Positions 8,054-41,104 of a stretch of DNA of 64,000 nucleotides are shown one piece after another. The position numbers were made by a program, and so were the translations under genes. The notes beneath the pieces were generated by a model. It did no database searches and was not told the origin of the DNA. It saw only the letters and a list, made by a program, of their open reading frames with translations. Position 1 is the first letter of the stretch, and the number at the start of each line of letters is the position of its first letter. Where the stretch lies: NCBI RefSeq assembly GCF_027856955.1, contig NZ_JAPSMD010000003.1, positions 1 through 64,000 of the forward strand. The letters are read 5' to 3'. The DNA is from Falsiroseomonas oryzae. Its GTDB lineage: Bacteria; Pseudomonadota; Alphaproteobacteria; Acetobacterales; Acetobacteraceae.

Positions 8054-8090
8054 GCCCCGGCATGGCGTCGACCTCGGCAGCATAGCGCCG

Positions 8091-8114: not shown

Positions 8115-8245
8115 ACACCGGGGGACGCCAGCGGTCGGGGCTCGGCTAGCACTACTTTGGCAGAATTGGGCGGGCGGCTGCCGATCTCGAATTCCCCTGT
8201 CGGCTATTGCGTGATTCATGAGGGATCGGCGTCGGAGAGCCGATC

Positions 8246-10325: not shown

Positions 10326-10329
10326 CTAG

Positions 10330-22928: not shown

Positions 22929-23057
22929 TTGGTCCCCGGAGGCCAGCGCCTGAGGTCGGCTCCGGTGTGAAATCCGGATACCCGACAGCTGTCCTAACTT
23001 AAGCCCGCCAGGGATCGGCATTTCAACCCCTGAGTACTGTGACCGTTGCGGCGTCAG

Positions 23058-24273
23058 CTGGACACCTCCAGAAACCCTCTCGTCACGATAATGTCTGGCT
23101 GATTCACTGACGCGGATCAGCGCGGGGGATGGCGATGGTTCGGCAGCCTGGGTTCTTCGATGTGGAGGAGCGGCTGCGCGACCTGCCGGCCAAGAGCGAT
23201 GACCTCGAACGCATCGCGGCGTTGGTGGATTTCGCGCTGTTCCGGCGGGAGTTGGAACGGGCTGTGCCGCGCGCCGACGGCACGAAGGGCGGCCGGCCTG
23301 CCTTCGATCATGTGCTGATGTTCAAGATCCCGCTGCTGCAGGCGATGCACGGGCTGTCGGATGAACGCTGCGAGTACCTGATCAAGGATCGGCTCTCCTT
23401 CATGCGCTTCCTCGGCCTCGGGCTGGCCGATTCGGTGCCGGACGCCAACACCATCTGGGCGTTCCGCGAGGCGCTGAAGAGGGCAGGCGCGGTCGAGCGG
23501 CTGTTCGCGCAGTTCGACGCCACGCTGCGCGGCGCCGGCTACCTAGCGATGGGCGCGCAGATCCCAGAGGGCTGGGCGGAGAAGCCCACGAAGCTGCGCC
23601 AGAAGGACCGCGACGCGCGCTGGACGGTGAAGTTCTCCAAGGCCAAGCCGCGCGAGGATGGCGCGCCGCAGGTCGATCTCGCCGTACCGGCCTTTGGCTA
23701 CAAGAACCATGTCGCGATCGATCGCAGGCATGGCCTGATCCGCGGCTGGACCGCGAGCCACGCCGCGGCCCATGACGGGGCACGGTTGGCGGAGGTGGTC
23801 GATGCCGGCAACACCGCTGGCGATGTCTGGGGCGATACTGGCTATCGCTCGGCGAAGAACGAGGCCTGGCTGGCCGAGCGTGGCTCGGTCTCGCGCATCC
23901 ATCGCAAGAAGCCGCCGGGGCGGCCGATGTCGGCGCGGACACGGCAGGCCAATGCGCGCAAATCCGCCGTGCGCTCCGCGGTCGAACACGTCTTTGCCCG
24001 GCAGAAGGGGCCGATGGGCTTGGTGGTGCGCACCATCGGCATCGCCCGAGCGAGGGTGAAGATCGGCCTCGCCAACCTAGCCTACAACATCAAGCGCCTT
24101 GTCTGGCTCAGCGGCAGGCCCGCGCCGGTGTAGCAACCGCCCCAATCTGCCGCTGACCAGACCAGCGGTCCCCGGCGAGGTGCCGCCGCCTCGTCTCCAA
24201 TCGCCAATCACACGGCCACCAGCCCTGCGCTGACCTCATCGGCCGCCATCAACGGGTTTCTGGAGGTGTCCAG
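23058..24273 (+). mobile_element. IS5-family element with 20-bp perfect inverted repeats
   Basis: CTGGACACCTCCAGAAACCC at 23058-23077 is repeated exactly in inverted orientation at 24254-24273. The 1216-bp element carries one transposase gene. No target duplication is obvious at these ends. It sits between the start of the DndF-like operon and the NACHT operon, so it splits two defence modules. Confidence 0.85.
23129..24133 (+). pseudogene. IS5-group transposase lacking the first catalytic Asp
   Basis: A 334-residue IS5-type transposase, open throughout: MVRQPGFFDVEERL, FKIPLLQAMHGLSDERCEYL, RDARWTVKFSKAKP, the second Asp in GDTGYRS and the Glu in RSAVEHVFARQKG. Around residue 143-146 the sequence goes straight from GYLAMGAQ to IPEGWAEKP. 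In full-length relatives I know this spot holds a VDAT block carrying the first catalytic Asp plus about 20-25 more residues. An in-frame deletion near 23558-23564 therefore seems to have removed an essential residue, making the enzyme inactive though the frame is intact. Confidence 0.7.
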
Positions 24274-24431: not shown

Positions 24432-26738
24432 ATGACAGACAGTGACCCGATTTGGCTGGCCTATCTCCGGGCATCCTGGGGCCCCTCGCCGGAGCGACAA
24501 AGAGAACTGCAGGACCTCGAGGACAGGGTTCGCGCGGAGGGACGCTCGGGCGGAGTCGATGCGTTCCGGGCCGCACGCGCTGCAGGGGAGAAAGCCTACC
24601 AGGCCAAGCTGGAACTCGAGCAGGTGTTTGACACTCGGGGGGAGCATGCTGCCCGACAATGGCTTGTCGAGGCGAAGAGATCCTGGCTGAGCGACAGCAG
24701 GATTGTCAGAAGTCTGGAACTGAAGCTCAACGAGCGGATCACGCGCGGGCACACTCTTCGTAACCGCCACGGGCAGCCGACGAGGGTACGGACGACCCTG
24801 TTGGATGGCCGGCACCCGAACTGTCTGCGTGCGCTGCAACCAGCCGACTCCTGGGCGATCTACGTCGACGAAACCGGAGCCGTATTCGATGGCACGGTTG
24901 AACTGCCCGCCGACTCGAAGCGAGTGGGCCGTATGGTGGCCCTAGCTGTCCCCGATGGCGTCGATTTGCCCGATTGCAGCGGGTTTCATGCCAGCGAGCG
25001 AACCTTTGCCGAGGTCGACGAGGTGCTGCAACGCGTTCTCGATGCGCCGGTCGGCATCTTCGGCTTCAGCGTTCGAGACGATACTGCGCGACATCGGTAC
25101 TGGATCGGCCATGTCCTCCATCTCGTGCGCTGGACGCTGCTTCAACTGCCGTTGCCGACCGATGGCCGCAAAAGCCGGGTTCGCATCCTGATAGAAAAGC
25201 GTGACGCCTATGAGCCGTCGACAGATCTGAAAACCATGGCCCAGGCCATCGAGAGCGAGGTTGCGGCGATTGATCCGCGGCGATTCGACGGACTGGCGCT
25301 GGACATGGGGTTCATGGACAAAAGCCATTCGATGACCGGCTATGTCGATACCGTGGCCTTTACCTGGGGCAGTTCGGACAGATGGAACAAGGAGCGTTTG
25401 CGAAAATCGCAATTGCTCGGCCATTGCTTCATCGAGGCTACCGAACGCAGCCTTCACCACCTGTTTCTGGCACTGACGCAGGGCGGGCCGCTGGCACCGG
25501 CTGATTGGTATGAGCTTTGTGCGGCGGCAGATAATCAGGAGGACAGCTTCCTGCGCCGCGAGCTCGAGCGCCTCGGCAAGGCAATGGTGCGCTTTCCGAG
25601 GCATTGGGAGCTTTACCTTGCAGAGGTGCAGACGCGTCTGATGAGCAAGCAATATTCCCTTGCCGAGCTGGGCCATGCCATCGCCTGGCTGCAGCAGTAT
25701 GCGGACCCGTCGCAGATCATTCCGGGTACGCTCCGGCTACAGCTTGAAAGCAGCAACCTTGCGCTGGCCAACCACCGCGGGCAGATCCAGGCTGATCTGG
25801 TTTTCCGCTGCCTCGACTGGGTTGGAAAGCTGGAGGACGAGGCTCCGCAATTGGCGGCCGAGGCGCTTTTGCGCATGGCAAGCACCATGACAAATAATTT
25901 CGAGTTCAGCGCGCTACAAGACGCTGTCGAGGATTGGCTGTCGAAACCCATCGCGGTGGCGGGGCTGCTGAACTACGGCAAACTGCAATCGACGCAGGGC
26001 CAGATGCGTGCCTTTTCGGGAGATCCGTCCGCAGCCGTTTCCTGTTTCCACGCAGCCACGGCGACTTTTGCCCGTCTAAGCGATCCACAGCAGGTCACCC
26101 GCGAGACGCGCCAGACCAAAATCTACGAGATCATCGCACGGATGGACGCCATGCCTTTCAGCGCCGCCGGCGGCGAGCAGTCCGCCGAGGTCGAAACGGT
26201 GCTGGACGCCATTCGTCAATTGCTCGGCAACCGCGAGCCGGAGGCCATCAGCCGGTCGCTGTCCACGTCCGATCAGGCCGGGCGTTTCGAACATCATCTG
26301 TGGCTTCGCGCGATGGCCCGCTTCCCCCGCCAAATGGCCAGTGCCCGCGCGGCCTATCTCGACAATCGCGACCACTGGAAGACCGGGAGCGATCACCCAT
26401 GGCCGCTGATCCTTGCCTATCGGGCCTGGCTGCTGAACGACTCTGGCGAGACGGCAGAAGCGCGCTCCTGGCTGGAAGAGGCGGTTGCGGTCTGTCGCGA
26501 CGATGAACACGGTCCGACGCTCGAGTGGATGGCACGAGTTCTTGATATCCTGGCACAGGCGATCTGCTTGCCGCCTGGCGGTTCCGAGTGGGCGGCAGAG
26601 GCTGGATTGCGCAACCGCCTGCCGCATGCGCCCTGGTCGGCGCTAGCCGACTTTGCCGGCGAGGCCGCGCAGGGCGGAATGCCGCGTGACCGGATCTGGT
26701 CGCATCTCGCGAGATGCCTTCCCTTCAACTTCCACTGA
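24432..26738 (+). CDS. Putative RNase H-fold (DUF3800-like) protein with TPR-like C-terminal half
   Basis: A 768-residue protein I cannot place in a named family. Residues about 140-330 show a DUF3800/RNase H-like pattern: an Asp on the first strand (AIYVDETGAVFDG near 143), a strand with acidic residues (RILIEKRDAYE) and a later helix with Asp (GYVDTVAFTWG near 303). The N-terminus is helical and charged; residues 400-760 look like helical repeats of the TPR class. Its end overlaps the upstream in-frame ATG of the NACHT gene, and the likelier start is 39 bp on, so the two proteins are probably partners. A nuclease or nuclease-like effector is a reasonable guess; the metal-binding set is not complete enough to be sure. 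Confidence 0.6.
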   Translation: MTDSDPIWLAYLRASWGPSPERQRELQDLEDRVRAEGRSGGVDAFRAARAAGEKAYQAKLELEQVFDTRGEHAARQWLVEAKRSWLSDSRIVRSLELKLNERITRGHTLRNRHGQPTRVRTTLLDGRHPNCLRALQPADSWAIYVDETGAVFDGTVELPADSKRVGRMVALAVPDGVDLPDCSGFHASERTFAEVDEVLQRVLDAPVGIFGFSVRDDTARHRYWIGHVLHLVRWTLLQLPLPTDGRKSRVRILIEKRDAYEPSTDLKTMAQAIESEVAAIDPRRFDGLALDMGFMDKSHSMTGYVDTVAFTWGSSDRWNKERLRKSQLLGHCFIEATERSLHHLFLALTQGGPLAPADWYELCAAADNQEDSFLRRELERLGKAMVRFPRHWELYLAEVQTRLMSKQYSLAELGHAIAWLQQYADPSQIIPGTLRLQLESSNLALANHRGQIQADLVFRCLDWVGKLEDEAPQLAAEALLRMASTMTNNFEFSALQDAVEDWLSKPIAVAGLLNYGKLQSTQGQMRAFSGDPSAAVSCFHAATATFARLSDPQQVTRETRQTKIYEIIARMDAMPFSAAGGEQSAEVETVLDAIRQLLGNREPEAISRSLSTSDQAGRFEHHLWLRAMARFPRQMASARAAYLDNRDHWKTGSDHPWPLILAYRAWLLNDSGETAEARSWLEEAVAVCRDDEHGPTLEWMARVLDILAQAICLPPGGSEWAAEAGLRNRLPHAPWSALADFAGEAAQGGMPRDRIWSHLARCLPFNFH

Positions 26739-26776
26739 GCAGCGCGCCGTACCGCCTGACAGCAGCAGTTAGACAG

Positions 26777-29700
26777 ATGTCTCTTCTCAAAACGTCCCTC
26801 GCGCCTCGACTAGCCAAACATGTTCTTCTGCATCCCCGTGGAGGGGTGGAGACGCTGCTGCAGCTGTTGGGGAACAGCGAAACGGAATGGCTGGAACTGA
26901 AGGCCTCGAGCTATCCCGAGGGTGGCCGTTTCGAGCAGGGGACGAATGCGGACGATTACCGCTGGAACGTGGCGAAGGCGGTCATTGCACTGGCCAACTC
27001 GATTGGGGGGGTGGTGCTGCTGGGGGTCGCCGACGATGGCGGCGTGGTCGGCATCGAGGCCAGCGATCCCAAGTGCCGGCGGCGGTCGAAGGGGGCTGAG
27101 GCGTTTCGCCGCGAGGTGATCATGCAGCAGGTGCTGCTGCGGACCAACGGCTGGAAGACCGGCAAGCAGGGAGAATTCCGCTTGGTGAATGCCGCCTTGC
27201 TGGAGCGGCTGGTGGCGTTGGAGGAGATCCCTCACGGCGAGCAGAGCGTGCTGGCGATCTTCGTGGATCCGGCGCCTAAGGGCTATGGCTTTGTCGAGGT
27301 CGAGGCGCGGCAGGATGCCGCGGCGGCCCGCCGGGTGGTATATCTGCGCAAGCGCGGCGCGGTCGGGCAGGTCGTGGCGCTGACCGCGGATCAGGTGGAT
27401 GCCATAGCGGCGCATGAGACGCAGCGCCAGCAGCTTGCCGCCGAGATACCGCTGCTCTGGAAACGCTTCGAGGAGAGTGGCCGGCTTGCCCGTTCGGCCG
27501 AGGAACTCCTGCCGGATGTTCGCCGCTATGTCGCGGCCCTTGAGGCGCGGCTGGCGCCGGCCGCGGCGAGCTTCACCCCGCTTGTGGCAGTGCAGCGCCG
27601 CGGCACAGGGCCGAACGCCGACGGCAAGGCGTGGGCGCGCGATGATGGCGATAATTGGGCCCGGAGCGACGCCTCGCGCGCCAGCGAGAGCCGCGAGCTG
27701 CTGCGGACAGAACCGGAGCCGCGCAAAGGGCCGGCGACCGAACTGCTCGGACAACGCCGCCGGGCGCTGCTGATCGGCGAGGGTGGATCGGGCAAGAGTC
27801 GATGCGTTGCAGCGCTCGCTCACGATGCGGCGCGCGACTGGCAGCCCGGCCGGCCCTGGCCGCTGCTGGTCTCGCTCTCGGCCTATACGGCAGAGGGGCT
27901 TCGGGGGTTGCTGGCGATCGAAAGCCGCATCGACTGGCAGGATCTGGCGCCACGGATCGAAGCGGGCGAGCTGACCCTCTGTCTCGATGGACTGAATGAA
28001 TGTCCGGACCCGCTCTATGACCAATGCTTGGCCGAGATCGAGGGGATCTTGCGCGAATATCCCGCCGCGGGTGTGCTGCTGACCAGCCGGACTGCCCAGC
28101 TGCCGGCGGGACTGCGGCTCGAGACATTCGAGCTCAAGCCGATGGACCGGGCGGGGCAGAGCACGTTTCTGGCGAGCTATCTCGGGCAGCCGCAGCAGGT
28201 CGAGCCGATCCTTGCGCAACTGCACCTTCATGCCGGTGGCCGCGCGATCGCCGGCAGCCCGATGCTGCTGCGCATCGCCGCCGAGGTTGCCCGCGAGAGC
28301 CACGAGATCCCGACCGAGCGCTCGGCTCTCTATCGCCGCTTTTTCGATGCCTGGTTCCGACGCGAGGTCGAGACGGCGCAGCGCAGCGGCCAAGCGCTGC
28401 CCTGGGATCGCGAACTGACCATCGGCGCGCTGGCGGAGCTGGCCTTTCAGGCGCGGCGGAAGGGCAGCGGCCGAATGCCCTTGGCCAGGGCCCACGCCCT
28501 GCTGATCTTTCGCCTTGGCGCGGATACCGAGCGCTTCATTGACTGGGCGTCGCAGGGCACCGTGCTGGTGCGTACCGCCGGCCAAGAGGATCTGGTCTTC
28601 GAGCACGAGACGATCCAGGAGTATCTTTGCGCCGAATACCTCGTGGCGCGGCATGAGGACATGCATGGCGATATTCTGGCTCTGCGCGCCGATGCCAAGC
28701 CTGGCATCTGGGCCATGCCGCTGGCCTTCGCCTTTGAGATGCTCGCACAGCCGTCGCCGGCACTGATGGATGCGGCCTGGAGGGTTGAGCCGCTGATCGT
28801 GGCCGCCGGAACCCGAGACGCGGCGCCCCATCGCGCCGAAGAGGTGGCCGATGACCTTTGGATCCGGGCGGTGCTGAAGGTTCTGCTCGGGCAGGATGCC
28901 ACCGCACAGGCCCGCGCAATCTCGATCATTGCCCGTCTGCCGCCGAAGTATCCGATCTCGCGCGATCTGTTGGCCAGCCTGCACGGAAGCGGCTTCTGGT
29001 ACTCGGCACTGACCCATTCCGCCGGTGCGGCTAGGCTCGAGCGGCTGCGCGGTCTGGTCTGCGGCCCCGATTTCCCTTGGATCGAACTGTTGCCCGATGC
29101 GCTGGTCGGCTGTGAGGCTTGGGGCGAAGGGCTCTCGCCGGCGCTGCGCGCCATCGCAGGCGTGAGCCCGACGCCGACCCTGACCGAAGTGCTGTCCTCG
29201 GCCTCTGTCTCCGAGCTCTGCGCCCTCCGGAGGCGCGAGATGATCTCGCCAGAGACCTTCGTCTCCTCATGGAAGGCCGCGCTCGATCGCTCACGGGCGG
29301 AGCGGCTGGATCTCGACCTGCTGGATATTCTGCGCACCGAGAAGAAGCAGTTGACCGAGATCCTGCGCGGCATGCTACCGCGCTACAGGGCCGAGCTGCG
29401 TCGGATTGCTGTAGAGCCCGAGCTGTCACCGCGGGTGCTCAGCATCCTGCTGCGCGCGGGTGCGGTGCGCGCCGGCGAGCTTCGCGAGCGACCTGGCTTT
29501 CTGGCGAATGTCTGTGCGCGCATGTCAATGATGAACGCGATCCGGCTGACCCGGGCAGGGCTGCTGCGGCGGGCGGATATCGACGCAACGACGCGGGCGC
29601 GCCTTGTCTATGACAGTCTTATCCATGACAGCGACACCAAATCCGACAAGCTCCGGCAGGCGATCGAACTAGGCCTGCTGGATTCAGAGGATCTGCCACC

Positions 29701-30067
29701 GAAGTTGCGCGAGCGGATCAAGGTTGCCGCCCCGTCGCCGCGTCATGCCCCGGCCGCAAGACCGGGGGGGGGCAGGTTTACGACCGCGATTCTGGGCGAC
29801 GCCAATTCCCGGATTAAGGTCAACGCCGAACTTGCCAAAACGCGCTGGAAGGTCGTGCTGAAGCGGATCACGGCCGAGCGGGGTTTTGGTTTTGCCCGGC
29901 ACCCGGATTTCGAGCAGGAAATCTTCTGTCTGCTCTCGAAGATTGCCGTAACCGACGGCAACGGGCTGCGCGAGGGTCAGGCACTCGACGTGAGGATTAC
30001 CGCGAGATTTGACGCTAAACGGCAGAGTTGGGGTTTTGCGGTTGAGTCTGGGCGCTGCATCGATTAG
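26777..30067 (+). CDS. AlbA_2-NACHT-cold-shock-like STAND protein
   Basis: A 1096-residue multidomain protein. Residues about 30-190 form a Schlafen AlbA_2 nucleic-acid-binding domain (SETEWLELKAS, ANSIGGVVLLGVADDG). A NACHT NTPase follows with Walker A IGEGGSGKS (about 332), Walker B TLCLDGLNE (about 401) and the downstream FEHETIQEYLCAEYL motif typical of NACHT proteins. A long helical sensor-like region spans 650-1000, and the C-terminus (about 1020-1096) resembles a cold-shock/S1 OB fold with GFGFARHPDFEQEIF. Bacterial NACHT proteins are phage sensors and effectors. ATG 26777 is chosen because the domain starts soon after; an in-frame ATG at 26714 overlaps the previous gene. Confidence 0.8.
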   Translation: MSLLKTSLAPRLAKHVLLHPRGGVETLLQLLGNSETEWLELKASSYPEGGRFEQGTNADDYRWNVAKAVIALANSIGGVVLLGVADDGGVVGIEASDPKCRRRSKGAEAFRREVIMQQVLLRTNGWKTGKQGEFRLVNAALLERLVALEEIPHGEQSVLAIFVDPAPKGYGFVEVEARQDAAAARRVVYLRKRGAVGQVVALTADQVDAIAAHETQRQQLAAEIPLLWKRFEESGRLARSAEELLPDVRRYVAALEARLAPAAASFTPLVAVQRRGTGPNADGKAWARDDGDNWARSDASRASESRELLRTEPEPRKGPATELLGQRRRALLIGEGGSGKSRCVAALAHDAARDWQPGRPWPLLVSLSAYTAEGLRGLLAIESRIDWQDLAPRIEAGELTLCLDGLNECPDPLYDQCLAEIEGILREYPAAGVLLTSRTAQLPAGLRLETFELKPMDRAGQSTFLASYLGQPQQVEPILAQLHLHAGGRAIAGSPMLLRIAAEVARESHEIPTERSALYRRFFDAWFRREVETAQRSGQALPWDRELTIGALAELAFQARRKGSGRMPLARAHALLIFRLGADTERFIDWASQGTVLVRTAGQEDLVFEHETIQEYLCAEYLVARHEDMHGDILALRADAKPGIWAMPLAFAFEMLAQPSPALMDAAWRVEPLIVAAGTRDAAPHRAEEVADDLWIRAVLKVLLGQDATAQARAISIIARLPPKYPISRDLLASLHGSGFWYSALTHSAGAARLERLRGLVCGPDFPWIELLPDALVGCEAWGEGLSPALRAIAGVSPTPTLTEVLSSASVSELCALRRREMISPETFVSSWKAALDRSRAERLDLDLLDILRTEKKQLTEILRGMLPRYRAELRRIAVEPELSPRVLSILLRAGAVRAGELRERPGFLANVCARMSMMNAIRLTRAGLLRRADIDATTRARLVYDSLIHDSDTKSDKLRQAIELGLLDSEDLPPKLRERIKVAAPSPRHAPAARPGGGRFTTAILGDANSRIKVNAELAKTRWKVVLKRITAERGFGFARHPDFEQEIFCLLSKIAVTDGNGLREGQALDVRITARFDAKRQSWGFAVESGRCID

Positions 30068-30083: not shown

Positions 30084-30779
30084 TCATGCCCCGGACGGCC
30101 GCGGGCCGAGTTCATGGTATCTGTCGGCAATCCTGATCGGGGCGCCGACAATCAGCTTGCGGGCGTCGTCGATGTCGAAGGCATAGATATGTGCTGATGC
30201 GACATAGCCGCGCAGCACGCCGCTGACTGTGTTGCAGCGCCGCGCCAAGTCGCTCTGCAGCCGCGCCAGCGCCGCTAGATTGGCGTATTGGCGACCGAAG
30301 ATGTTCTGGCTGCGGAAAAAAAACTGCAGGTCCAGCTGCCCCCGCCGGATCTTGGCGTCAAGCGTCGTCAGGCAAGGCAGGCCGGCAGCGGTGCTGCCGG
30401 TAACCAACAGGTTTATTGTTGCGGATTTCGTGTCGGGCTTGCGTAGCAGCCGCTCGACCATCCAGTCGAGCTGATCTACGCCGTCCATGTCGAAAATGCG
30501 CTGGCCGTAGGTGAAGGGACGCTCGGGCATGGAGGCGCCCCGCGCGAATTTTGCGAGGGTCCGGGTCACGACCGCCGGATCACCATGGGCCAAGATGATC
30601 GGATCCTCCTCCCTCGGCGCCGTGATCTCGACGGCCAGCCCAAGCAGTTCGATCAGCCCGACCTCTCCGTCGTGATGGGGCTGTCCGTGGTTCAGCACAT
30701 AGCGGATGCTCCCGAGCCAGCATTCTCCGATGGTCTGCGCATGGATGCCCGGCGGCCGGGCTGGCTTGTCATGCTGCAT
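30084..30779 (-). CDS. Thymidylate synthase-like enzyme
   Basis: A 231-residue ThyA-fold homologue. GIHAQTIGECWLGSI, YGQRIFD, the Cys loop GLPCLTTLD, the phosphate-binding FFFRSQNIFGRQYANLAA and SAHIYAFD align in order with the E. coli ThyA active-site Cys, RS-x-D...N and HxY blocks. By eye, Cys146, Arg166, Asn177 and His207/Tyr209 equivalents are kept, whereas Asp169 is Asn. Retention of Asn177 suggests a uridine-type nucleotide rather than dCMP. It could methylate or hydroxymethylate a nucleotide with methylene-THF, but it is divergent from housekeeping ThyA. It follows the ThiL-like gene after 17 bp. Confidence 0.72.
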   Translation of the reverse strand: MQHDKPARPPGIHAQTIGECWLGSIRYVLNHGQPHHDGEVGLIELLGLAVEITAPREEDPIILAHGDPAVVTRTLAKFARGASMPERPFTYGQRIFDMDGVDQLDWMVERLLRKPDTKSATINLLVTGSTAAGLPCLTTLDAKIRRGQLDLQFFFRSQNIFGRQYANLAALARLQSDLARRCNTVSGVLRGYVASAHIYAFDIDDARKLIVGAPIRIADRYHELGPRPSGA

Positions 30780-30796
30780 GAGAATGGCCCCCCGTT

Positions 30797-31915
30797 TCAG
30801 AAGTTTCGGTTCCAGAGCGCCTCGAAGTGCTGCGGTTCGAGCGTCGCGCCGCGCCGTGAGGCGGCCGCCTCGATCCGCGAGAAATGGCCGCTGCCATTAC
30901 CGTCATCCGCGAAACTGTCGTGCTCGATGCGCTCGAGCCGATGCCAGGCGCCGTCGAGATGGCGAACGGCGATCTCTCGGCTCTCGGTGACGCTGCCGAT
31001 AACGGTGACCCTTGCATCCTGCGCTGCGGCCAGTTGTTTCAGCGCCAACAGGTGCTCGGGCGGTACGGCATAGAGAAACTGCCAGTCGCCGCCCGCGGCC
31101 CCCAGCTGCAGCGGCGAGAGACCCGACGCCAAAATGAGTTCGTCAAGGTCGGGATGCATCGGGATGCGCCGCTCATCGACAAGGGCGCCGCATTCGCTTG
31201 CGCCGCATATCGCGTGGATTGCCCCGGGCAGGCCATCGCTGATGTCGGTTCCGGCGTGCGGTATGCCAGCCTCGGCAATGGTGCGGCCGAGGCTGAAGGG
31301 CGGTCGCTGCTCGATGATCGCCCGTTCGACGATGCGGCGGGCGCGATCGCCGAGCGGGAGTGCGCGCTTGCAGGCGATCAGTCCTAGCAGCATCGAACCG
31401 AGGACGCCCGTGACCACCAGCGCATCGCCGGTCCGGGCACCCGAGCGGCGGATGCGTTTCTCGCGCGATACCGTGCCCAGGGCGGTGGCGATAAGGGCGA
31501 ATTTCGGGTTCTGCTTGGTGTCGCCGGCGACGATCTCGGCGCCGTAGCGCTTGGCGGCATCGGCGGCGCCCTGCATGACACCGCGGACGAACCCGAGCGT
31601 ACTGTCGACGGGAAGCAGCAAGGCCACGGTCACTGTGCGCGGAATGCCACCGGCGACGACAATATCGCTGATGGCATGGGAAACGCCAAAGTCTCCAACA
31701 CATTCTGGGCCGGCCAACCCGAGCCCGTAGGCAGCGTTGAGCCCGGATCTGTCTGTGTTCAGCACCAGCAACTCGTCGTCCCTAAGACGAAGATCGACGA
31801 AGGCCGCATCGTGGCCGAATCCGTCGACCAGGATGCTGGGGGCGGTCATCAGGCTAGTTATCTCGGCCACGACACGACGCTCCCCGGCTTGGCGGACCGT
31901 CAATTCTTTGTCCAT
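30797..31915 (-). CDS. ThiL/PurM-like ATP-dependent kinase family protein
   Basis: A 372-residue member of the PurM/ThiL/SelD/HypE superfamily. GHDAAFVDL near the N-terminus, AISDIVVAGGIPRTVTVALLL, the metal/ATP loop GDTKQ, TGDALVVTGVLGSMLLG and DISDGLPGAIHAI correspond to the ThiL pattern (thiamine-monophosphate kinase). The C-terminal extension is unusual. Because the downstream gene is thymidylate-synthase-like and no thiamine gene is near, the substrate may be a nucleotide or another phosphorylated intermediate. ATG 31915 is chosen; ATG 31927 (TGGAG upstream) is also possible. Confidence 0.75.
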   Translation of the reverse strand: MDKELTVRQAGERRVVAEITSLMTAPSILVDGFGHDAAFVDLRLRDDELLVLNTDRSGLNAAYGLGLAGPECVGDFGVSHAISDIVVAGGIPRTVTVALLLPVDSTLGFVRGVMQGAADAAKRYGAEIVAGDTKQNPKFALIATALGTVSREKRIRRSGARTGDALVVTGVLGSMLLGLIACKRALPLGDRARRIVERAIIEQRPPFSLGRTIAEAGIPHAGTDISDGLPGAIHAICGASECGALVDERRIPMHPDLDELILASGLSPLQLGAAGGDWQFLYAVPPEHLLALKQLAAAQDARVTVIGSVTESREIAVRHLDGAWHRLERIEHDSFADDGNGSGHFSRIEAAASRRGATLEPQHFEALWNRNF

Positions 31916-32342: not shown

Positions 32343-33121
32343 CTAGGTCACGTGGGCAAACCTAATCCATAGACGGATCGAGGACAGGGCGGCGAAGCCG
32401 AGGAAGCTGTCGGCAGTCTGGTCGTAGCGGGTGGCGACGCGACGGCTGTTCTTCAGGCGGTTGATGAAGCACTCGATGCGGCTGCGCAGCGCGTAGAGGG
32501 GCCGGCTGACGTAGTGCTGGAGGTGGCGGTTCCGCTTCGTCGGGATCTCCGGCACGGCACCGCGGTCGCTCAGATCCCGCCGGATCGGGTCACTGTCGTA
32601 GCCCTTGTCGCCGAGCATGATGGCGGGATCGCTGTCGCGCGCTTCCATCAGCGCGTCGTAGTTCGAGCAGTCCGCCTCCTGCCCGGCGGTCACGTGCAGG
32701 GCGATGGGCAAGCCGTGCGCGTTGCCGCGGATGTGGAGCTTGCTCGTGAAGCCACCTCGCGAGCGCCCAAGACCCTGTCGATGAGTCCCCCCCTTCCGCC
32801 GGCGGCGCAGTGGTGCGCCCGGATGCTGGTGCTGTCGATCATCTGCAGGAGGTCCGCCTCGCCGGCGCCGTCGGCCAAGGCTTCCAGCACCACATCCCAC
32901 AAGCCGGAGGCGGTCCAGCGCCGGAACTGGCGGAACACCGAGTTCCAGTTGCCGAGTTCGACCGGCAGGTCACGCCATGGCGCGCCGGTGCGGGCAATCC
33001 AGAAGATCGCGTCCAGCACGCGCCGGTGGTCGCGGGCGGGCCGGCCGCCAAGCGGGCTGGCCGACACCAAGAAGGGTTCGAAGAAAGACCACTCTTCGTC
33101 CGTCAGCAGCCCGCGGATCAA
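32343..33121 (-). CDS. IS427-group transposase in two frames; stop codon lies in the target duplication
   Basis: OrfA starts at ATG 33121 (MIRGLLTDEEWSFFEPFL, ARTGAPWRDLPVELG, first Asp in LQMIDSTSIRAHH). At a G-rich run near 32785-32800 (GGAAGGGGGG) a -1 shift leads into the frame encoding GRSRGGFTSKLHI, the second Asp in MLGDKGYDSD and SRIECFINRLKNSRRVATRYD with the Glu. The reading ends at a TAG whose bases (32343-32345) belong to the flanking CTAG copy, not to the element itself. The transposase is probably functional if frameshifting occurs. Confidence 0.82.
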
Positions 33122-33205: not shown

Positions 33206-33316
33206 CTAGGGGCGCGACAGGCCCAGCGTGTATCGACACCACTGCCTTTGCGCTGGCCGAATCCGTTGCGGTGTTGCAAGTTCGGCCCATGCAATTCCAT
33301 TCGCAGTCGATCCACC

Positions 33317-35086
33317 ATGATTGAGCATCTGACACTCAAGAGCTTCCGAAAATTCCAAGAATTCAGCATCGCGCTGAAAGCTGGGAACATTCTGGTCGGC
33401 CCCAATAACGCCGGAAAATCATCAATCCTAGATGCCTTGCGTCTCCTTGAGGCCTGCTTCCGCTACACCACAAACAAGACCCCTGTTATGATGTCGGCAC
33501 CAGGACACGGGGTAGTCGCAGGCTACGAAATCCCCGACACCGCCTTCCCGTTCAGCATGGCGAACGCGACCTACAACTACACAGACGACCCGGCCATACT
33601 GACCTTCCAGCACGCTAATGGCACAACAGCAATAATCCATTTCGACCCTCAATCTAACACAAAATTCTTTGTTGAGGGATCAACAGCACGCCTCAGTACG
33701 GGAGCCAAATTCCGTTCTGCGTTTCCGGTCGATTTTGTTCTTATTCCAACTCTCTCGCCGCTCGAGCCAGACGAGCAGCTTGTTCGCGATGAGACCGTCC
33801 GCAGGAACGCGGGCAACCGCCTCGCCAGTCGGGTGCTCCGCAACATCTGGTATCGCAGAACCGACAGCGAATTTGACGAATTTGCCCGGGAGATAGCGTC
33901 GGCGTGGACGGGCATCGAGATCAAGAAGCCCGAGTTGCAACGCGCCGAAGACCGCACCTTCCTGCGGATGTACTATGCCGAGAATAGGATTGATCGGGAA
34001 GTACAGTGGTCTGGCTTCGGCTTTCAAGCTTGGCTGCAGATCCAGACGCATATTCGGCGAGCCACTGAAAACAGTATCCTCGTCATCGACGAGCCCGATG
34101 TCTATCTACACCCCGATCTGCAGAGGCGCCTCCTCTCTGATATCCGAACGAGATTTCCGCAGTACGTCATGGCCACGCATGCCATAGAGATCATAAACGA
34201 GGCGGACGCGGGTGAGATCGTCGCCATCAACAACAGGCAGAAATCAGCGCGGCGCGTGCGCACTGACGAGGACTACCAATCCGTCTATCGATACATCGGT
34301 TCAGGAGAGAACGCCGCCTTCGCCCGGCTGGCGAAGGCGAAGAAAGTGATTTTTGTCGAAGGTGAAGATGGGCGGCTGCTACGGAGGTTCGCATCACGGC
34401 TCGGCTTTTCTGCCCTGGCCCAGGCCGAGAGCGTGCCGATCGTAAGGCTTGGCGACTTCAGCGATTTGAAGCGCGCCACCAGCGCTGTGTCGGCGCTCGG
34501 CCGCATCCTTCAAATGGACATACAGATCGCCTGTGTCTTTGACAGGGGATATCGGTCAGACTTGGAGATCGACGAGTTCCTTTCCGATCAGCCAGCCGAG
34601 AACATGCAGTGCTTCATTCTACCCCGCAACGAGATCGAAAATTTCCTGCTGGTCTCGGGCGCGCTGCATAGGGCCGTCCTTCATCGGATGGGCGAGCGAA
34701 AGGCAGCAGCCCTCCTGCCCGACGGCGCAATCGACATCCTGCTGAACGATGCCGTGTCCGAGCTCCGACACCTCGTGGAAGGTCAAATGATTGGCCACGC
34801 GATTCGATATGCGAAGCGCGTCGACCAAGGTATCGACGAGGGGGCCATCGCCGGCAGTGTCGTGAGAAAACTCTCTGGAGCCTGGGATGACCTCGGGAAG
34901 TCCTGCGGCTTGGTTCCGGGCAAGGAGACGTTCAGCATGCTTCTGGGAATGCTTCGCGGCCGCCACGGCGTGAGCATCAGCGACACGTCCGTCATCGATG
35001 CCATGCAAAGAAGCGATTTTGATCCTGATCTGGTTCGAATTCTGCGTGAACTTAATGCGTTTTGCGAAGAAGCCCAAGAAAAATAA
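33317..35086 (+). CDS. OLD-like AAA ATPase-TOPRIM nuclease (possible fused PARIS-type protein)
   Basis: A 589-residue protein. The N-terminal SMC/OLD-type ATPase has MIEHLTLKSFRKFQEF, Walker A VGPNNAGKSSILDALR and Walker B VIDEPDVYLHPDLQRR, followed by MATHAIEIIN (switch His). The C-terminal part is TOPRIM-like: VIFVEGEDGRLLRRF near 344, CVFDRGYRSDLEID near 406 and the later LPRNEIENFL. This fits OLD-family anti-phage nucleases; it could also be compared with fused AriA-AriB (PARIS) proteins. GC content is visibly lower than the surroundings, suggesting recent acquisition. It is monocistronic, with the start 108 bp downstream of the IS. No partner gene is adjacent on the same strand. Confidence 0.75.
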   Translation: MIEHLTLKSFRKFQEFSIALKAGNILVGPNNAGKSSILDALRLLEACFRYTTNKTPVMMSAPGHGVVAGYEIPDTAFPFSMANATYNYTDDPAILTFQHANGTTAIIHFDPQSNTKFFVEGSTARLSTGAKFRSAFPVDFVLIPTLSPLEPDEQLVRDETVRRNAGNRLASRVLRNIWYRRTDSEFDEFAREIASAWTGIEIKKPELQRAEDRTFLRMYYAENRIDREVQWSGFGFQAWLQIQTHIRRATENSILVIDEPDVYLHPDLQRRLLSDIRTRFPQYVMATHAIEIINEADAGEIVAINNRQKSARRVRTDEDYQSVYRYIGSGENAAFARLAKAKKVIFVEGEDGRLLRRFASRLGFSALAQAESVPIVRLGDFSDLKRATSAVSALGRILQMDIQIACVFDRGYRSDLEIDEFLSDQPAENMQCFILPRNEIENFLLVSGALHRAVLHRMGERKAAALLPDGAIDILLNDAVSELRHLVEGQMIGHAIRYAKRVDQGIDEGAIAGSVVRKLSGAWDDLGKSCGLVPGKETFSMLLGMLRGRHGVSISDTSVIDAMQRSDFDPDLVRILRELNAFCEEAQEK

Positions 35087-35470: not shown

Positions 35471-37240
35471 TCACGCCGTCGGCTGGTCAGGCAGGTTCAG
35501 AGAGCGGACGTACTCCCAGCAATCTTGCTTCTTTGCCCACTCCGAAACCATGCGGCCTGCCGACGACGCCTGCAACGCTTCGTCCACCTGCTTCGCCCAG
35601 GTCGTCGCCACGGCGACCGCCTGTGGCGTCATGGCCTGCTCCGTCCAGACCCTGTCAAGATCGATGTGTGCCCGTAGCCTCTCTGACATCAGCGCCACCG
35701 TGTACACGGTCACGTTCGCCTGGAAGGCGGTAACCAGCGGCCGCACCAGCTTCTGAACCGTACGGAAGACGATGACCTGCGCGACGATACGCTTGTAGTC
35801 CGAAGCGTTGGAGATCGGCCACCGCGCCGCCCCCTCCTCCTCGTCAAGCAGCTGGCTGAACCTCTCGAAGTTCTTCTGAAGGCCGAAACTGGCGACCTGC
35901 GGAAACCCGGCCCAGGTCATGAGGCACTTGGCCAACTCCGTCTTGTTGAACTTCTTCGCCGGCGGGAACTCTGCCTTCAGCTTCTTGAGGCGAGACGCCG
36001 TATCGCCCTTCCGCGCCAGCATGACGTTGTAGCTGCCCGCCGCCCGCTCGTAGAACCAACGCGTCGTCCCATCAGGGCAGAAGGTCGACTGCGACAGCTG
36101 CTCGAGCTGGCGGTGGAATGGCCGGTTGGCGGAGAGGTCGGAAACCTTCACCGCACTCTGGCTGTTCGCGAAGCGCGAGACGTTGGACACCAGCGCTTCC
36201 CGCGCGGCCTCGCCGTCCTCCCCTCCAGCACCGAGGATGATGATCTTCGCCGGAACCCGCACCGAGCGCAGATCGGTGTCTGCCGCCTTCTTCTTTGTGA
36301 AGTAGATCGACGCGGTGGTCTGCCCACCGTTCACGATCTGAACGCCGCGCAGCCACGCGATGCCAGGTCCACCATCAGCTGTAGCCTCATACCCGGCCTC
36401 GTCGGCGATCATCACCACGCCGTTGTTGAACGCCATGAAGTGCTCGGGGCTTGTCCGAAGCGTGTCACGTATGCCGCGGTTCACCTTGTTCGTAGAACTC
36501 AGGAAGGAGCGGACATTCGCCTCCAGCAGCCGCGCCCCGAACTTCTCGTAGGTCACCCGCAGCGCTTCGCCTGGCAGCGCGGCAAGTGCAACGCTGTAGA
36601 CAGTCTCCTGACCGGGTATCAGCACACAAGGGAGGGGAGCCCCCGAAAGGGACTTGAAGTCGAACACCATCTCGTCCCGCGGCTTTCCCTCGGAAAGGTG
36701 ACGATACAGTCGCTCGATGTCCATGACCTCCAGGCGCACGGTCTTCCCATTCACCTCGCGGCTCTTGAAGCTTTTCGACTTCGCGACCCGATCGGTCAGC
36801 ACGTGGATGGTGATGTGGTCCAGCTTCGGGAAGATCATCTCGATGATCTGCGCGAGCTCGTGGGCCTCGTTCGCCTCGTCGATCCGGCTGGCGAGGCGCC
36901 CCTCAGCGCACTTTGCAAGGAAGGCAAGACAGCGGCCCGCCGCCTGCGTGGTCTCGCTGTCCGGGACGGGTGCAACAGTCTCCATCCCATCGTAGAGGCT
37001 GACGAACAAGTCGAGCTGCTCGTCGTCCCGACTGACCGCGTAGCCGCTCAGCCTGAGCTCGGCGCGATCCACGCGTGCAGCGTAGTGGCAGACCACCGGA
37101 TCGGACGTCATGCCGATCTCCGCCATATGGTCCATGACAAGCTCGGCGAAGACCATCTCGCTGTATGGCGGGGCATCACCCTCCGCCATGCGCTCGCGGA
37201 TATCGGTCTGGAGCTGCTTCAGGAAATCCTCAACCGTCAT
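35471..37240 (-). CDS. AIPR-family abortive infection protein
   Basis: A 589-residue protein of the AIPR family (first linked to abortive phage infection). Diagnostic segments are EHFMAFNNGVVMIADEA and RGVQIVNGGQTTASIYF (the N-G-x-Q-T core), then VSRFANSQSAVKVSDL and RWFYERAAGSYN. Such proteins recur in restriction-modification loci; their biochemical role is unclear. The start overlaps the end of the PD-(D/E)XK gene by 4 bp, making it the last tightly coupled gene of the five-gene operon. Confidence 0.88.
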   Translation of the reverse strand: MTVEDFLKQLQTDIRERMAEGDAPPYSEMVFAELVMDHMAEIGMTSDPVVCHYAARVDRAELRLSGYAVSRDDEQLDLFVSLYDGMETVAPVPDSETTQAAGRCLAFLAKCAEGRLASRIDEANEAHELAQIIEMIFPKLDHITIHVLTDRVAKSKSFKSREVNGKTVRLEVMDIERLYRHLSEGKPRDEMVFDFKSLSGAPLPCVLIPGQETVYSVALAALPGEALRVTYEKFGARLLEANVRSFLSSTNKVNRGIRDTLRTSPEHFMAFNNGVVMIADEAGYEATADGGPGIAWLRGVQIVNGGQTTASIYFTKKKAADTDLRSVRVPAKIIILGAGGEDGEAAREALVSNVSRFANSQSAVKVSDLSANRPFHRQLEQLSQSTFCPDGTTRWFYERAAGSYNVMLARKGDTASRLKKLKAEFPPAKKFNKTELAKCLMTWAGFPQVASFGLQKNFERFSQLLDEEEGAARWPISNASDYKRIVAQVIVFRTVQKLVRPLVTAFQANVTVYTVALMSERLRAHIDLDRVWTEQAMTPQAVAVATTWAKQVDEALQASSAGRMVSEWAKKQDCWEYVRSLNLPDQPTA

Positions 37241-38256
37241 TTCAGGCCTGCCGCCTCCAGGATGGTCGTGAGCGAGGTTGTCGGAAGTGCACGCATGTCG
37301 AGGTCGATCACGTACCGCGCTGACACCACACCGCGAGGCACCGACGCAGCGGTCAGGAGCGGGAAATCGCTACCCACCTCGATCCAGCGCAGGTCAGATA
37401 AGGTCAGGCGCCGCGTATATCGGTCGGCGAACGCGTCGATGTAGCCTGCGCGGAGCAGACGAGCCGAGAAGCTCTGACCGGCATGGCCACTACACGCGGC
37501 CAGCCGCGCTCGGAGCTGGGCCACACGGTGCGGCAGTGTCGATCCGGCATCGGAGCCGGCCAACCGCACAGCGGCGAGGTATATTGGCGACCTGATCGCG
37601 AGGTCCAACTGCTCCAGGGAGCCGATCGTCGCCCTGAAGCCAATAGCCGAAGTCGTCGCCTTGGCCTCCAGCGCCCCGACAGGAAGCATGAAGTCGTGCA
37701 GGCCGCGCAGGGGACCCTGCCACATGTCAACGACCGCCGCGCTGTCAGGAAGCGCTGCCAGCAGCTGTTCGAGCACGACCAGCTCGCCGTGCAAACCGAT
37801 CTCCTCGTCCTCGCTCAGGATCCCGGCGCGCTGATACGACATGAAGTCCTGCCAGGCGCGGATACGAGCGAGAACGGCATCCGCGACTGCCTGCTCATCG
37901 TCATGGAGCGCGTCGGCAAGCAGGCCGATGAGGTCCTGCGCCATGGCCTCGAAAAGGTCTGACCTCGCGCCCTGCTGCCGCGTCAGTGCCAGCAGCAGGA
38001 GGTTCGGGAGAGTGGGATGCCGGATCGCCTCGACAGCAAAGCCGCGGCTGGCCGGCAACTGGCTTGGAGCGGGCAGACGGGCCTGGTGGAAACCAATCAG
38101 CAGCGCCTCACGGTCGTCGGGCTTCTGCCGACCGGCCAGAACGGCTACCTCGCCCAGCCGCACCAGATGAACGATCCGCCAGCCAGAGCTTCCTGCATCG
38201 CCGGCCAGAGCCCGCCAGGCTTCAGCGAGGCGAACTCCATCACTCCGAGGAGCCAT
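37237..38256 (-). CDS. PD-(D/E)XK motif protein, putative restriction endonuclease
   Basis: A 339-residue protein matching the PD-(D/E)XK motif family (also called DUF4420). A helix Glu in IGLHGELVVLEQLL precedes the nuclease core: an Asp in LHDFMLP and E-x-K in ALEAKATTS. It is the likely DNA-cleaving subunit of the GHKL-ATPase/Z1 system. It overlaps the Z1 gene by 17 bp upstream and the AIPR gene by 4 bp downstream. The family and context are established for this system class; the cleavage site is unknown. Confidence 0.85.
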   Translation of the reverse strand: MAPRSDGVRLAEAWRALAGDAGSSGWRIVHLVRLGEVAVLAGRQKPDDREALLIGFHQARLPAPSQLPASRGFAVEAIRHPTLPNLLLLALTRQQGARSDLFEAMAQDLIGLLADALHDDEQAVADAVLARIRAWQDFMSYQRAGILSEDEEIGLHGELVVLEQLLAALPDSAAVVDMWQGPLRGLHDFMLPVGALEAKATTSAIGFRATIGSLEQLDLAIRSPIYLAAVRLAGSDAGSTLPHRVAQLRARLAACSGHAGQSFSARLLRAGYIDAFADRYTRRLTLSDLRWIEVGSDFPLLTAASVPRGVVSARYVIDLDMRALPTTSLTTILEAAGLK

Positions 38257-41098
38257 ATTCCTGCTCCCAGAGCACGTTGTTGACCTTGTACTCCACCTTC
38301 ACGCCGGACCGGCTCCCGGGAAAGCTGATGCCGAGGCCGACGATCCCTTCCACATCGGCCGGGAACTCGACACCAGTCCTGCCGGGATCAAGGACGTAGA
38401 GCAGAAGCAATCCGGAATTGGATCTCGGCGGAACGCCATCAGCACCGAAGCCGCGCACGCGCCGGATAGCTATGCCGTTAGGCGCATCAGGCTCGCTGGT
38501 TTGGTTGCGTCCAGCATCCGCCTTCCACGCCTCTCTGGTCAGGTCGAGTGCAGCCGCCCAGGAGGCATGATCCAGATCGATCGCCTCGTCACGTGGCGCC
38601 AGAAGTCGCCCGATCGAGAAGCGGTCCGCGGTGAACGTGCGCTGGCTACGCTGCGGCATCTTCACCGCGACGCCCTGGCCGAGCTCGATCACACGACGAT
38701 CACCTCCGCCGAGAATAGCGACCGTCCATGAGGTCAACTCTCCCGTCCTCGACATCGACTCGATGAATTCTCCAAGGAGGCGAGCATCCGTCTTGTAGGC
38801 ATCCGGATGGGTCTTGTACGCGGCGAGAAATGCAGTGATCCGGTCCGCCGGAACAGCCCGCCAGAGTGCACCTTCCCATTCGTGCTTCATCGATGGTCGG
38901 ATGCGCTCGATCCGCGGGCTCTCATCCGGCACCCCGATGGCGTCAACCAGGGCACGCAGCGCCTTCAGATTGCCTCGCAGCACTCCAGGGTCTCGATGGA
39001 AGGCTACCGTCTCGACCACCTGCCCGCTGAAGGACAGCATGAGGGTCTTCGCCGACCTCATCTTTAGACGCGATGTGACCATCAGCACCGGATGTGACTG
39101 CACCTTCAGGCCGTAGTCGCGCGGCGTCCCGCCGCTGGCCTGCATGAGATCGAACTCCTCCCTCAGTTCCTCGGACGCATCGGCGATATGCCCGAACCAG
39201 TCGATGAGATCGGACGTGGTGTAGAGGCGGCAGAGATCGAGATATCCGGGCCTGTAGCCGAACCAGCGCCCCATCTGCATCAGCGTGTCGTACATGCGCG
39301 AGGCTCGGAGGAAGTAGCTCGTGCAGAGGCCCTCGAGGGTGAGCCCCCTCGCAAGCTTGTCTCCGCCAATGGCGATGACCTTGAGGCCCGTGGCCGCATT
39401 GTCGACGTAGTCCAGCGCGTCCTTCGCCGTGCCGTTGATCATCCGGACCTCAATGTCCGATGCGACATCAGGCAGGACGTCTGCGATCTGCTCCCAGCTC
39501 ACCGGCCGGATCGAGGGATCGTCGACACGCGCTCGCACTGCTTCCGTGGCCGGGACGAAATCCTCCACCCAGAGCTTCCGGAGGTCCTCGACCAGGCGTG
39601 CGCTGTCGATGCGACGCTGAAGGCGCTGGGTTATGCCGCGCATCAGGTCAGCGACCTGCCGATGCACTTCGGTCTGCACGGCGTTGAACCTGGTGACGTG
39701 GATCAGCATCGAGCAGTGCCGATTGCCCTGGCCTCGGACCGTCCGCGCGGCACATGCCAGCAGGAACGAAAGGATCGCCGTCCTGAGAGAAGCCGGTACC
39801 CCGTCAGAAGTGACTGCGGGCGGGCTGTGAGTGCTCTTGTGACCCTGTGGCATCCACCCGCCGGCAACAGCGGCGTCCTGGTGATCGGCGACAACCCTGA
39901 CCAGCGGAAGGCCGCCATCGCGTCCGTTCGTGGTGCGGAGGCCGAATATCCGCGCCGGGCCGACGTAGGTCGAAGGTGCCGCAAGATTCACGATGAACGC
40001 ACTCGGGAACAGGTCCAGCCCCTCCTCGCGAGTGGCGCCTCGCTCGTGGATGAAGATGTTGGCGAAGGGCGTCGCCGTGTATCCGACGTAGGCCGACCGC
40101 GTGAACGAGTGCAGCAGCCTCCGGATGAGCTTGTTGATCTCCGTCGGGGAGTGGTTCTCGTCCGGCCTCCCCTGCTCATCGAAGACCTGCTCGCCGGTGT
40201 CGACCGACGCATGGTCCGCTTCGTCGTCCAGAAGCAGGAGCGGCAACTTCGTCACAAGCCGACGGCCTGTCTCCTGATCCCTCGAGTCGGCGACATGGTT
40301 CCTGACCCAGGCAAGGAGGCGCGTGAGGACCGTCTTGTTCTTCTTGACCACGAAGAGCCACGGCCGCTGCTCGGGGCTTATGCCGAGGTTCCGCGCAATG
40401 GCAGTCGAGAAGTCGCCGTTGTTGGTCCGGTTGGTCACATAGTTCGGTCGGATCGCGGGATCCCCGTCGATCTCACCGACGCCGATCGGCGCGGTGTCAC
40501 CTGCCAGGGGAGCTGTCGCGTATCCCAGGAAGCCCTCATCAAGGCGCATCTGCGTCTGCGCACGCAGGTTGTTGTGAAGCCCCGCGAGGACGATGATGAT
40601 CTTGTAGCCGGCATCTGCCGCCTTGCAGATGAGCCCGGTATAGTTGCCCGTCTTCCCCGACTGCACATGGCCGACCACGAGGCCGCGGCGATCCCAGTCA
40701 CCCTCACGCCGGGGATCCTCGAGCAGCCCGAGTATGCCGTCGGTCGATCGGTCAAGAGCGTCGATGGCATCAAGCGGGAGGTCGCGCTCAAGCCACTCTC
40801 GGTACCTCTGCCAGAGACGCCAATCCTTCTTCCGCGCAGCCTCCAGCCAGGCGACATGTCCGGCATCGTTCTTCAGCGTTCCGTCGCGGCCGATCCACAT
40901 GGAGAAGCGCCGGATGAGTTCCTCGGTGACCGCTGCACGGTCAAGGCCTTCGCCCCATGACGGCTTCATCCTGAGAACGAGATCGATCTGGTCGGCAATC
41001 AGCGCCGGCCCGATCCTGCTGCGGTCAGTCTCCTCCAGCAGGAGTTCCTGCACGAACTTGACCACCTTCTGCGCGTGCGTTTCCGGCGTTGCGTTCAT
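38240..41098 (-). CDS. Z1 domain helicase-like ATPase
   Basis: A 952-residue protein with a superfamily-II-like P-loop (Walker A VVGHVQSGKTGNYTGLI near 146), Walker B LLLLDDEADHAS near 294, VGYTATPFANIF, and the Z1-domain segments VIAIGGDKLARGLTLEGL and MGRWFGYRPGYLDLCRLY. Z1 proteins are found beside MORC/MutL-type GHKL ATPases and nucleases in predicted R-M systems, where they probably translocate on or remodel DNA. The start is 6 bp from the end of the GHKL ATPase gene. Confidence 0.9.
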   Translation of the reverse strand: MNATPETHAQKVVKFVQELLLEETDRSRIGPALIADQIDLVLRMKPSWGEGLDRAAVTEELIRRFSMWIGRDGTLKNDAGHVAWLEAARKKDWRLWQRYREWLERDLPLDAIDALDRSTDGILGLLEDPRREGDWDRRGLVVGHVQSGKTGNYTGLICKAADAGYKIIIVLAGLHNNLRAQTQMRLDEGFLGYATAPLAGDTAPIGVGEIDGDPAIRPNYVTNRTNNGDFSTAIARNLGISPEQRPWLFVVKKNKTVLTRLLAWVRNHVADSRDQETGRRLVTKLPLLLLDDEADHASVDTGEQVFDEQGRPDENHSPTEINKLIRRLLHSFTRSAYVGYTATPFANIFIHERGATREEGLDLFPSAFIVNLAAPSTYVGPARIFGLRTTNGRDGGLPLVRVVADHQDAAVAGGWMPQGHKSTHSPPAVTSDGVPASLRTAILSFLLACAARTVRGQGNRHCSMLIHVTRFNAVQTEVHRQVADLMRGITQRLQRRIDSARLVEDLRKLWVEDFVPATEAVRARVDDPSIRPVSWEQIADVLPDVASDIEVRMINGTAKDALDYVDNAATGLKVIAIGGDKLARGLTLEGLCTSYFLRASRMYDTLMQMGRWFGYRPGYLDLCRLYTTSDLIDWFGHIADASEELREEFDLMQASGGTPRDYGLKVQSHPVLMVTSRLKMRSAKTLMLSFSGQVVETVAFHRDPGVLRGNLKALRALVDAIGVPDESPRIERIRPSMKHEWEGALWRAVPADRITAFLAAYKTHPDAYKTDARLLGEFIESMSRTGELTSWTVAILGGGDRRVIELGQGVAVKMPQRSQRTFTADRFSIGRLLAPRDEAIDLDHASWAAALDLTREAWKADAGRNQTSEPDAPNGIAIRRVRGFGADGVPPRSNSGLLLLYVLDPGRTGVEFPADVEGIVGLGISFPGSRSGVKVEYKVNNVLWEQEYGSSE

Positions 41099-41104
41099 TC
41101 GCGC

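Follow-up and report, generated by a model that had tools for sequence, protein, structure and literature searches.

What do a divergent thymidylate-synthase-like enzyme and a ThiL-like kinase do beside a gene for a NACHT protein? We addressed this question in a stretch of 64,000 nucleotides of Falsiroseomonas oryzae DNA (here called the window), in which the two enzyme genes belong to a set of four:

24432 to 26738, forward strand: TPR partner, 768 aa, with weak TPR matches.
26714 to 30067, forward strand: SLFN/AlbA_2 plus NACHT protein, 1117 aa, with both domains over the Pfam cut-off.
30084 to 30779, reverse strand: ThyA-like protein (thymidylate synthase [TS] fold) with an RSQN motif, 231 aa, assigned by Pfam, fold model and alignment.
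30797 to 31915, reverse strand: ThiL-like putative nucleotide kinase of the PurM/AIRS superfamily, 372 aa, with its start at a conserved ATG.

The ThiL-like gene lies directly upstream of the ThyA-like gene, with 17 bp between them, and the NACHT gene is convergent with this enzyme pair, separated from the ThyA-like gene by 16 bp. The TPR gene and the NACHT gene downstream of it share 25 bp, the end of the former and the start of the latter. The original prediction, which placed a ThiL/PurM-like gene 17 bp from a ThyA homologue and a NACHT gene next to both, was borne out by the open reading frames, by Pfam matches of the ThiL-like protein to AIRS (8.1e-15) and AIRS_C (6.4e-10), both above cut-off, and by the NACHT domain of the adjoining protein. 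A search of the four proteins against the PADLOC models returned no match at E <= 0.1, and a promoter and terminator scan found nothing exceeding shuffled sequences. Transposase-like open reading frames, recognized by eye, flank the four genes at 23129 to 24133 and at 32343 to 33121, the second in two frames.

Querying GTDB genomes with the ThyA-like protein returned six loci (L002 to L007), which with the window make seven. In all seven, the ThiL-like gene is directly upstream of the ThyA-like gene and the NACHT and TPR genes are present; the TPR partner of L006 is a divergent open reading frame of 842 aa upstream of the ThiL-like gene. One new carrier, G1449, was found among 100 genomes of the L005 host's family with the ThyA-like alignment as the only query, and its neighbours were read afterwards, so that this locus constitutes an independent test. 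Its region carries, on a single strand, ThiL-like, ThyA-like, TPR, DUF932-like and NACHT genes. Altogether, the four core genes occurred together in 8/8 ThyA-like loci, which answers in the affirmative the earlier question of whether the enzyme pair travels with the NACHT gene. Four kinds of layout were found among the eight: the convergent arrangement of pair and NACHT gene in the window and L002 to L005; the same arrangement with a relocated TPR gene in L006; and the one-strand layouts of L007, in which a viperin gene comes first, and of G1449. The named hosts represent two bacterial classes, Alphaproteobacteria (Novosphingobium) and Gammaproteobacteria (Mangrovimicrobium), and the ThyA-like proteins are 50 to 55% identical across loci. 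Since the linkage survives rearrangement at this level of identity, we argue for a joint function; likewise, because the same set is conserved in other genomes, its assembly in the window is not due to chance. These data support a functional linkage of the four genes.

Two variations on this gene set were noted. A DUF932-like gene, below the Pfam cut-off, lies between the TPR and NACHT genes in L005 and G1449 (L005:12000-13070; L125:4916-5974), and a remnant of 59 residues is found in L006 beside a transposase-like gene (L017:10838-11014); the DUF932-like protein is possibly an optional component. In L007 (Novosphingobium), the NACHT gene at 9376 to 12663 has one in-frame stop, for which reason this module may be damaged or its NACHT gene split.

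The NACHT domain scored 28.6 bits to PF05729 (cut-off, 26.7), and SLFN_AlbA_2 was also above its cut-off. In an alignment of six rows, Walker A residues G358, G360, K361 and S362 and the Walker B region L424-E429 were invariant, and the AlbA_2 region displayed an E-x4-E-x-K pattern. The C terminus holds a weak cold-shock-like stretch, which reached the domain cut-off in the L007 homologue only. The TPR partner has 113 residues invariant in eight proteins, including the DETG, E255 and GYVD positions, which we take to resemble an RNase-H/DUF3800-type site; Pfam gave no match for such a site in this protein, and a TPR profile run against solved structures returned nothing up to E = 1.

Defence genes were seen around the module in three loci, namely, the window, L002 and L007. 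In the window, SspF-, SspG- and SspH-like genes (14748 to 23021) occupy one flank and MZA genes (MzaE, MzaD, MzaC and MzaB; 35471 to 45786) the other, the last open reading frame of the MZA stretch encoding an MzaA-like protein in which ankyrin repeats and sigma-70 regions are joined in a single chain. The L002 neighbourhood holds a PDC-M55C/HEC-05-type gene, and that of L007 holds an IetA-like ATPase gene. Viperin, the established example in bacteria of a defence enzyme whose product is a modified nucleotide, is encoded at one of the eight loci: in L007 its gene (286.8 bits to NF038283; cut-off, 180) has the same orientation as the ThiL-like gene and stops 24 bp upstream of it. Two proteins of the G1449 region had no match in PADLOC, and L003 and L004 are close to contig ends. 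The NACHT/Schlafen protein, the defence islands and the viperin neighbour make a defence role likely, and the module is probably anti-phage. The window also encodes an AAA_15/OLD-like ATPase at 33314 to 35086, whose best PADLOC match is AriAB.

The observed gene linkage, fold similarity and residue changes frame a proposal whose reaction, substrate, cofactor and defence role we infer. The four genes would make up a module, probably directed against phages, with the pair as its enzyme arm. The ThyA-like enzyme would bind a uracil nucleotide monophosphate, and its Cys136 would attack C6; methylene-tetrahydrofolate (methylene-THF) would not be used, and C5 would most likely be hydroxylated with a flavin, as in the RSQN phage 5-hydroxy-dCMP synthases. 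The ThiL-like enzyme would then convert the product monophosphate to a diphosphate, and the modified nucleotide would either act like the products of viperin, poisoning nucleic-acid synthesis of the phage, or set the NACHT switch that controls an SLFN-type effector domain. The pair probably makes a modified nucleotide, while flavin-dependent 5-hydroxylation by the ThyA-like enzyme is a guess by analogy with the phage enzymes. We hold the enzyme-arm reading as a whole, comprising uracil-nucleotide 5-hydroxylation, ThiL-like phosphorylation and an anti-phage module, to be tentative, with somewhat less than an even chance of being right. A bolder version, in which a NACHT module has its own line of modified uridine nucleotides, made by a non-folate TS-fold 5-hydroxylase and a ThiL-type kinase, with a product that is either a new immune signal arming the NACHT/Schlafen protein or an antiviral nucleotide beside that of viperin, is possible, if doubtful.

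Alternatively, the pair may handle or sense modified nucleotides that the phage itself makes, by binding or phosphorylating them, and then signal to the NACHT protein. Phages do make modified nucleotides with TS-superfamily enzymes, DndF has been proposed to sense modified nucleotides via its kinase domain (PMC10853773), and substrate contacts retained while folate residues are lost are what a binding-only domain might show. However, the nucleophile Cys, invariant in all eight ThyA-like proteins, together with the ATP/metal Asp residues of the ThiL-like protein, exceeds what sensing requires, and the viperin gene found in one operon favours nucleotide making. We therefore regard sensing as unlikely and prefer the reading in which the pair synthesizes a modified nucleotide.

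In support of the original prediction, the nucleotide-binding active-site core is retained in both proteins. The ThyA-like protein matched Pfam Thymidylat_synt (E 1e-9; 38.4 bits against a cut-off of 24.3). Its best NCBIfam model was TIGR03283 (methanogen-type TS) at 85.3 bits, below the cut-off of 174.55, and the ThiL-like protein scored 171.1 bits to TIGR01379 (thiL), below the cut-off of 184.15; with their best NCBIfam scores under the equivalog cut-offs, both proteins are divergent. Alignment with E. coli ThyA revealed retention of Cys146, Arg166, Ser167, Asn177, His207 and Tyr209 and replacement of Asp169 by Asn, in agreement with the residues first read from the window (Cys, Arg, Asn177, His/Tyr and Asn169). 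Both Asn169 and the RSQN motif are found in 8/8 cassette proteins. The residue at 177 is the uracil-reading Asn in the cassette and the cytosine-reading Asp in phage RB69, and the sugar type is ambiguous: by the residue types given for deoxy and ribo substrates at TS positions (PMC5175136), Ser167 is of the deoxy type and Lys at 126 is of the ribo type of MilA. Arg21 and His147 are gone, and the protein stops short of the TS C-terminal tail. We further aligned 22 TS-superfamily proteins, including five of the eight cassette proteins. The Arg126'/Arg127' phosphate pair is Lys/Ser in the cassette, unlike in RB69, so that phosphate binding has changed; Nonomuraea was the one other row with this replacement.

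These residues bear directly on a second alternative, that the ThyA-like protein is a folate-dependent methylase or hydroxymethylase of dUMP, which together with the kinase would yield methyl- or hydroxymethyl-deoxyuridine nucleotides. Such an enzyme would have the TS fold and the dUMP-enzyme frame of Cys, Arg166, Ser167 and Asn177, all of which are present, and the best NCBIfam model is a methanogen TS. In E. coli TS, however, Asp169 touches the pterin, and conserved Glu58/Glu60 serves methylene-THF activation (PMC6400193). In the cassette, position 169 is Asn throughout, and at Glu58 the cassette rows, like that of Nonomuraea, have a gap, in a part where the alignment is weak; the title of PDB entry 1bjg states that a D221(169)N mutant fails to promote cofactor ring opening. 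Asn169 was found in 11 of the 22 proteins (the five cassette proteins, Nonomuraea, RB69, G812, PTm1, P10VF and Candle), none of which has Glu58. The other 11 have Asp169, and 10 of them have Glu58, the exception being vir249, a virus member of the methanogen-type TS. Tyr209 is Phe in RB69 and PTm1. Moreover, RSQN was found in 16/16 viral loci related to RB69 ORF048c, whereas the folate hydroxymethylases of the T4 type carry RSND in 80/80 loci kept among 170 related to T4 gp42. The comparison with ThyA and the hydroxymethylases that had been proposed for this protein thus showed Asn169 to be common to the RB69-type enzymes and not the T4 type. Because the folate residues are lost, and in view of the 1bjg title, folate C1 transfer by the ThyA-like protein is unlikely. 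The original prediction of a methylene-THF-dependent hydroxymethyl-dUMP pathway is unsupported, given that Asp169, Arg21, His147, Arg126/Arg127 and, by alignment, Glu58 are gone, and we consider the folate-dependent alternative improbable. From the residues of the ThyA-like protein, our best guess is a non-folate reaction such as hydroxylation of a uracil nucleotide at C5.

The predicted structure of the ThyA-like protein (pLDDT, 79.9) has a TS fold. With VIA-align, the top matches were to the dCMP hydroxylase AfhB of phage HY126 (9iqu, Z 21.3; 9iqc, Z 20.8; rmsd 2.4 over 197), and the title of 9iqc reads "Monooxygenase dependent on riboflavin with dCMP and FAD." MilA (Z 20.1) and TS (Z 19.9) followed, and Foldseek instead ranked MilA first; Z differences of about 1 between these models are ties or near-ties. 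RB69 belongs to Mosigvirus, and the annotation of its ORF048c notes similarity to dCMP hydroxymethylase. Mosigvirus makes 5-hydroxy-dCMP by a TS-superfamily enzyme that is distinct in activity from the hydroxymethylase (PMC13390438), and from length, place and motif we infer that ORF048c is this enzyme. The phage 5-hydroxy-dCMP synthases (RB69 ORF048c and AfhB of HY126) resemble the cassette protein in their TS fold, RSQN motif, nucleophile Cys and lack of Glu58, and in RB69 a thymidylate kinase gene lies close to ORF048c, comparable to the kinase gene of the cassette. Unlike the cassette protein, they act on dCMP (Asp177), retain Arg126/Arg127, and modify phage DNA. MilA and BcmA share with the cassette the Lys at Arg126' and the absence of a His after the catalytic Cys but differ at Ser167, which is Ala, and at 177, which is Asp, and MilA keeps Asp169 (PMC5175136). 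The RB69-type and cassette enzymes are about 21% identical, and the cassette is nearer to the methanogen-type TS, of which vir249 has Asp169; for these reasons, RSQN may be convergent in the two groups and may have another meaning in the cassette.

The model of the ThiL-like protein (pLDDT, 74.2) had its best structure matches in ThiL (Z 28.4 and 28.2); SelD and HypE scored below these. Compared with E. coli ThiL, the TD, SD, GDT, DxSDGL and GGxD-type Asp positions, which include the ATP/metal Asp residues, are invariant in eight cassettes. The cassette proteins differ from ThiL in having GHD for GDD and in carrying RSG- and DWQFLY-type stretches on the substrate side, where ThiL has the segments around TLVAGNHF and DYELCF, in addition to the score below the TIGR01379 cut-off. 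ThiL converts a monophosphate and a further phosphate into a diphosphate (PMC6416309). Since this is the type of step required, phosphorylation of a modified NMP to an NDP fits the ThiL-like protein, to which we assign it by analogy. The product of BcmA leads to bacimethrin, a thiamine antagonist, and a thiamine-like antimetabolite could conceivably be made by a BcmA-like route with the ThiL-like protein phosphorylating the product. ThiL is the nearest kinase family, and BcmA, of the TS superfamily, prefers a ribosyl cytosine nucleotide (PMC5175136). Nonetheless, the substrate side of ThiL is replaced, the module showed no further gene of the thiamine pathway, and Asn177 indicates uracil and not cytosine, so that this route is very improbable. 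For the kinase of the preferred reading, a uracil-derived monophosphate would be the substrate.

We also determined how widespread the module is, using the ThyA-like profile at E <= 1e-20. It matched 1/385 genomes of the class and 1/398 genomes of the phylum, in both cases the window's own genome, which was also the single match among 100 genomes of its family. With the centre genome counted, matches were found in 1/99 genomes of the L006 host family and 2/100 of the L005 host family. Among 295 genomes of the L002 host family, full-length ThyA-like matches and TPR matches coincided in two genomes; a search of the same genomes at a loose limit matched five, namely, two cassettes, two ordinary ThyA genes (L013 and L014) and one MilA-like gene (L012), the last three of which were excluded from the module count. 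Among 298 genomes of the L007 family, the TPR profile matched L007's genome only, and no TPR gene without the enzyme pair was found in the genomes of these two families (298 and 295, respectively). The module is rare. The original prediction had raised the case of a common core operon unrelated to defence; we rejected a core operon on the basis of these class, phylum and family scans and of the four genes staying together in every locus. A second thymidylate synthase was present in 7/7 carrier genomes searched, ThyX in four and canonical ThyA in three, in one of which the gene is split over two reading pieces. ThiL exceeded the curated cut-off in 4/7 carriers; one of the four is the window's genome, whose copy sits at the edge of a contig. 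In the remaining three (G385, G386 and G387), the best ThiL match is the module's own sub-threshold protein, and because no other passes the cut-off, a housekeeping ThiL role is conceivable there. Although these three carriers would suit an operon of housekeeping or accessory metabolism adjoining the NACHT gene by accident, that explanation is scarcely credible against the persistence of the four genes together despite rearrangement, their rarity and the other TS in every carrier searched.

Origins in mobile elements were considered and rejected as well. Two profile scans of IMG/VR contigs found no relative of the pair. The ThyA-like protein matched 670 phage records, all of them partial TS and none covering 80%, and gave three partial or distant plasmid matches, one of which is the Nonomuraea gene (L009). 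The latter, at L009:8977-9585, is an RSQN ThyA-like gene, with no ThiL-like open reading frame or NACHT neighbour in the stretch from 5000 to 13500.

How does the module compare to known defence systems? Prokaryotic viperins (pVips) share the idea of making an antiviral nucleotide, and one lies directly upstream of the pair; the difference is that pVips form a radical-SAM system, which the pair does not. The NACHT/STAND anti-phage proteins EruA and Avs also have a NACHT domain with intact Walker A and B motifs, and the EruA model matches the NACHT part of our protein, albeit at 30.9 bits against an EruA cut-off of 1000; the module differs in the SLFN/AlbA N terminus of its NACHT protein and in its constant enzyme pair and TPR partner. 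A validated anti-phage system reported with DefensePredictor contains a TS domain (PMC13092281), and a figure legend of that report also abbreviates dNMP kinase, 5-hmdU kinase and NMAD domains. Compared by description only, that system resembles ours in its TS domain, but the main text of the report has no ThiL or AIR synthase. Thus, the use of a TS domain in defence has a precedent. A literature search restricted to open-licence PMC papers returned none whose title or abstract describes the combination of genes found here.

If the proposal is true, defence would have a second, chemically distinct nucleotide route, in which a NACHT protein is coupled to a candidate TS-fold oxygenase and a kinase of the ThiL type, and phage base-modification chemistry would have a bacterial, defensive counterpart that serves the host. 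In addition, folate-using and non-folate enzymes of the superfamily may be distinguishable by TS residue 169 (Asp or Asn) in combination with Glu58, also among phage genes that carry a thymidylate synthase label. Two further sets of genes are of note in this regard. The MilA-like TS-fold protein of about 431 aa at L012:892-2184 (reverse strand; L015) has an RSNN motif, with Asn169 and Arg at 58, and adjoins an ImmA/IrrE-like HEXXH protein recognized by eye; judging from its motif, it may be another non-folate enzyme. The genes of Mycobacterium phage Candle (L131:193-1191) and of L126 and L127, annotated as thymidylate synthase or pyrimidine hydroxymethylase, have Asn169 and no Glu58 and possibly encode 5-hydroxylases, that of Candle being of the uracil type on account of its Asn177.
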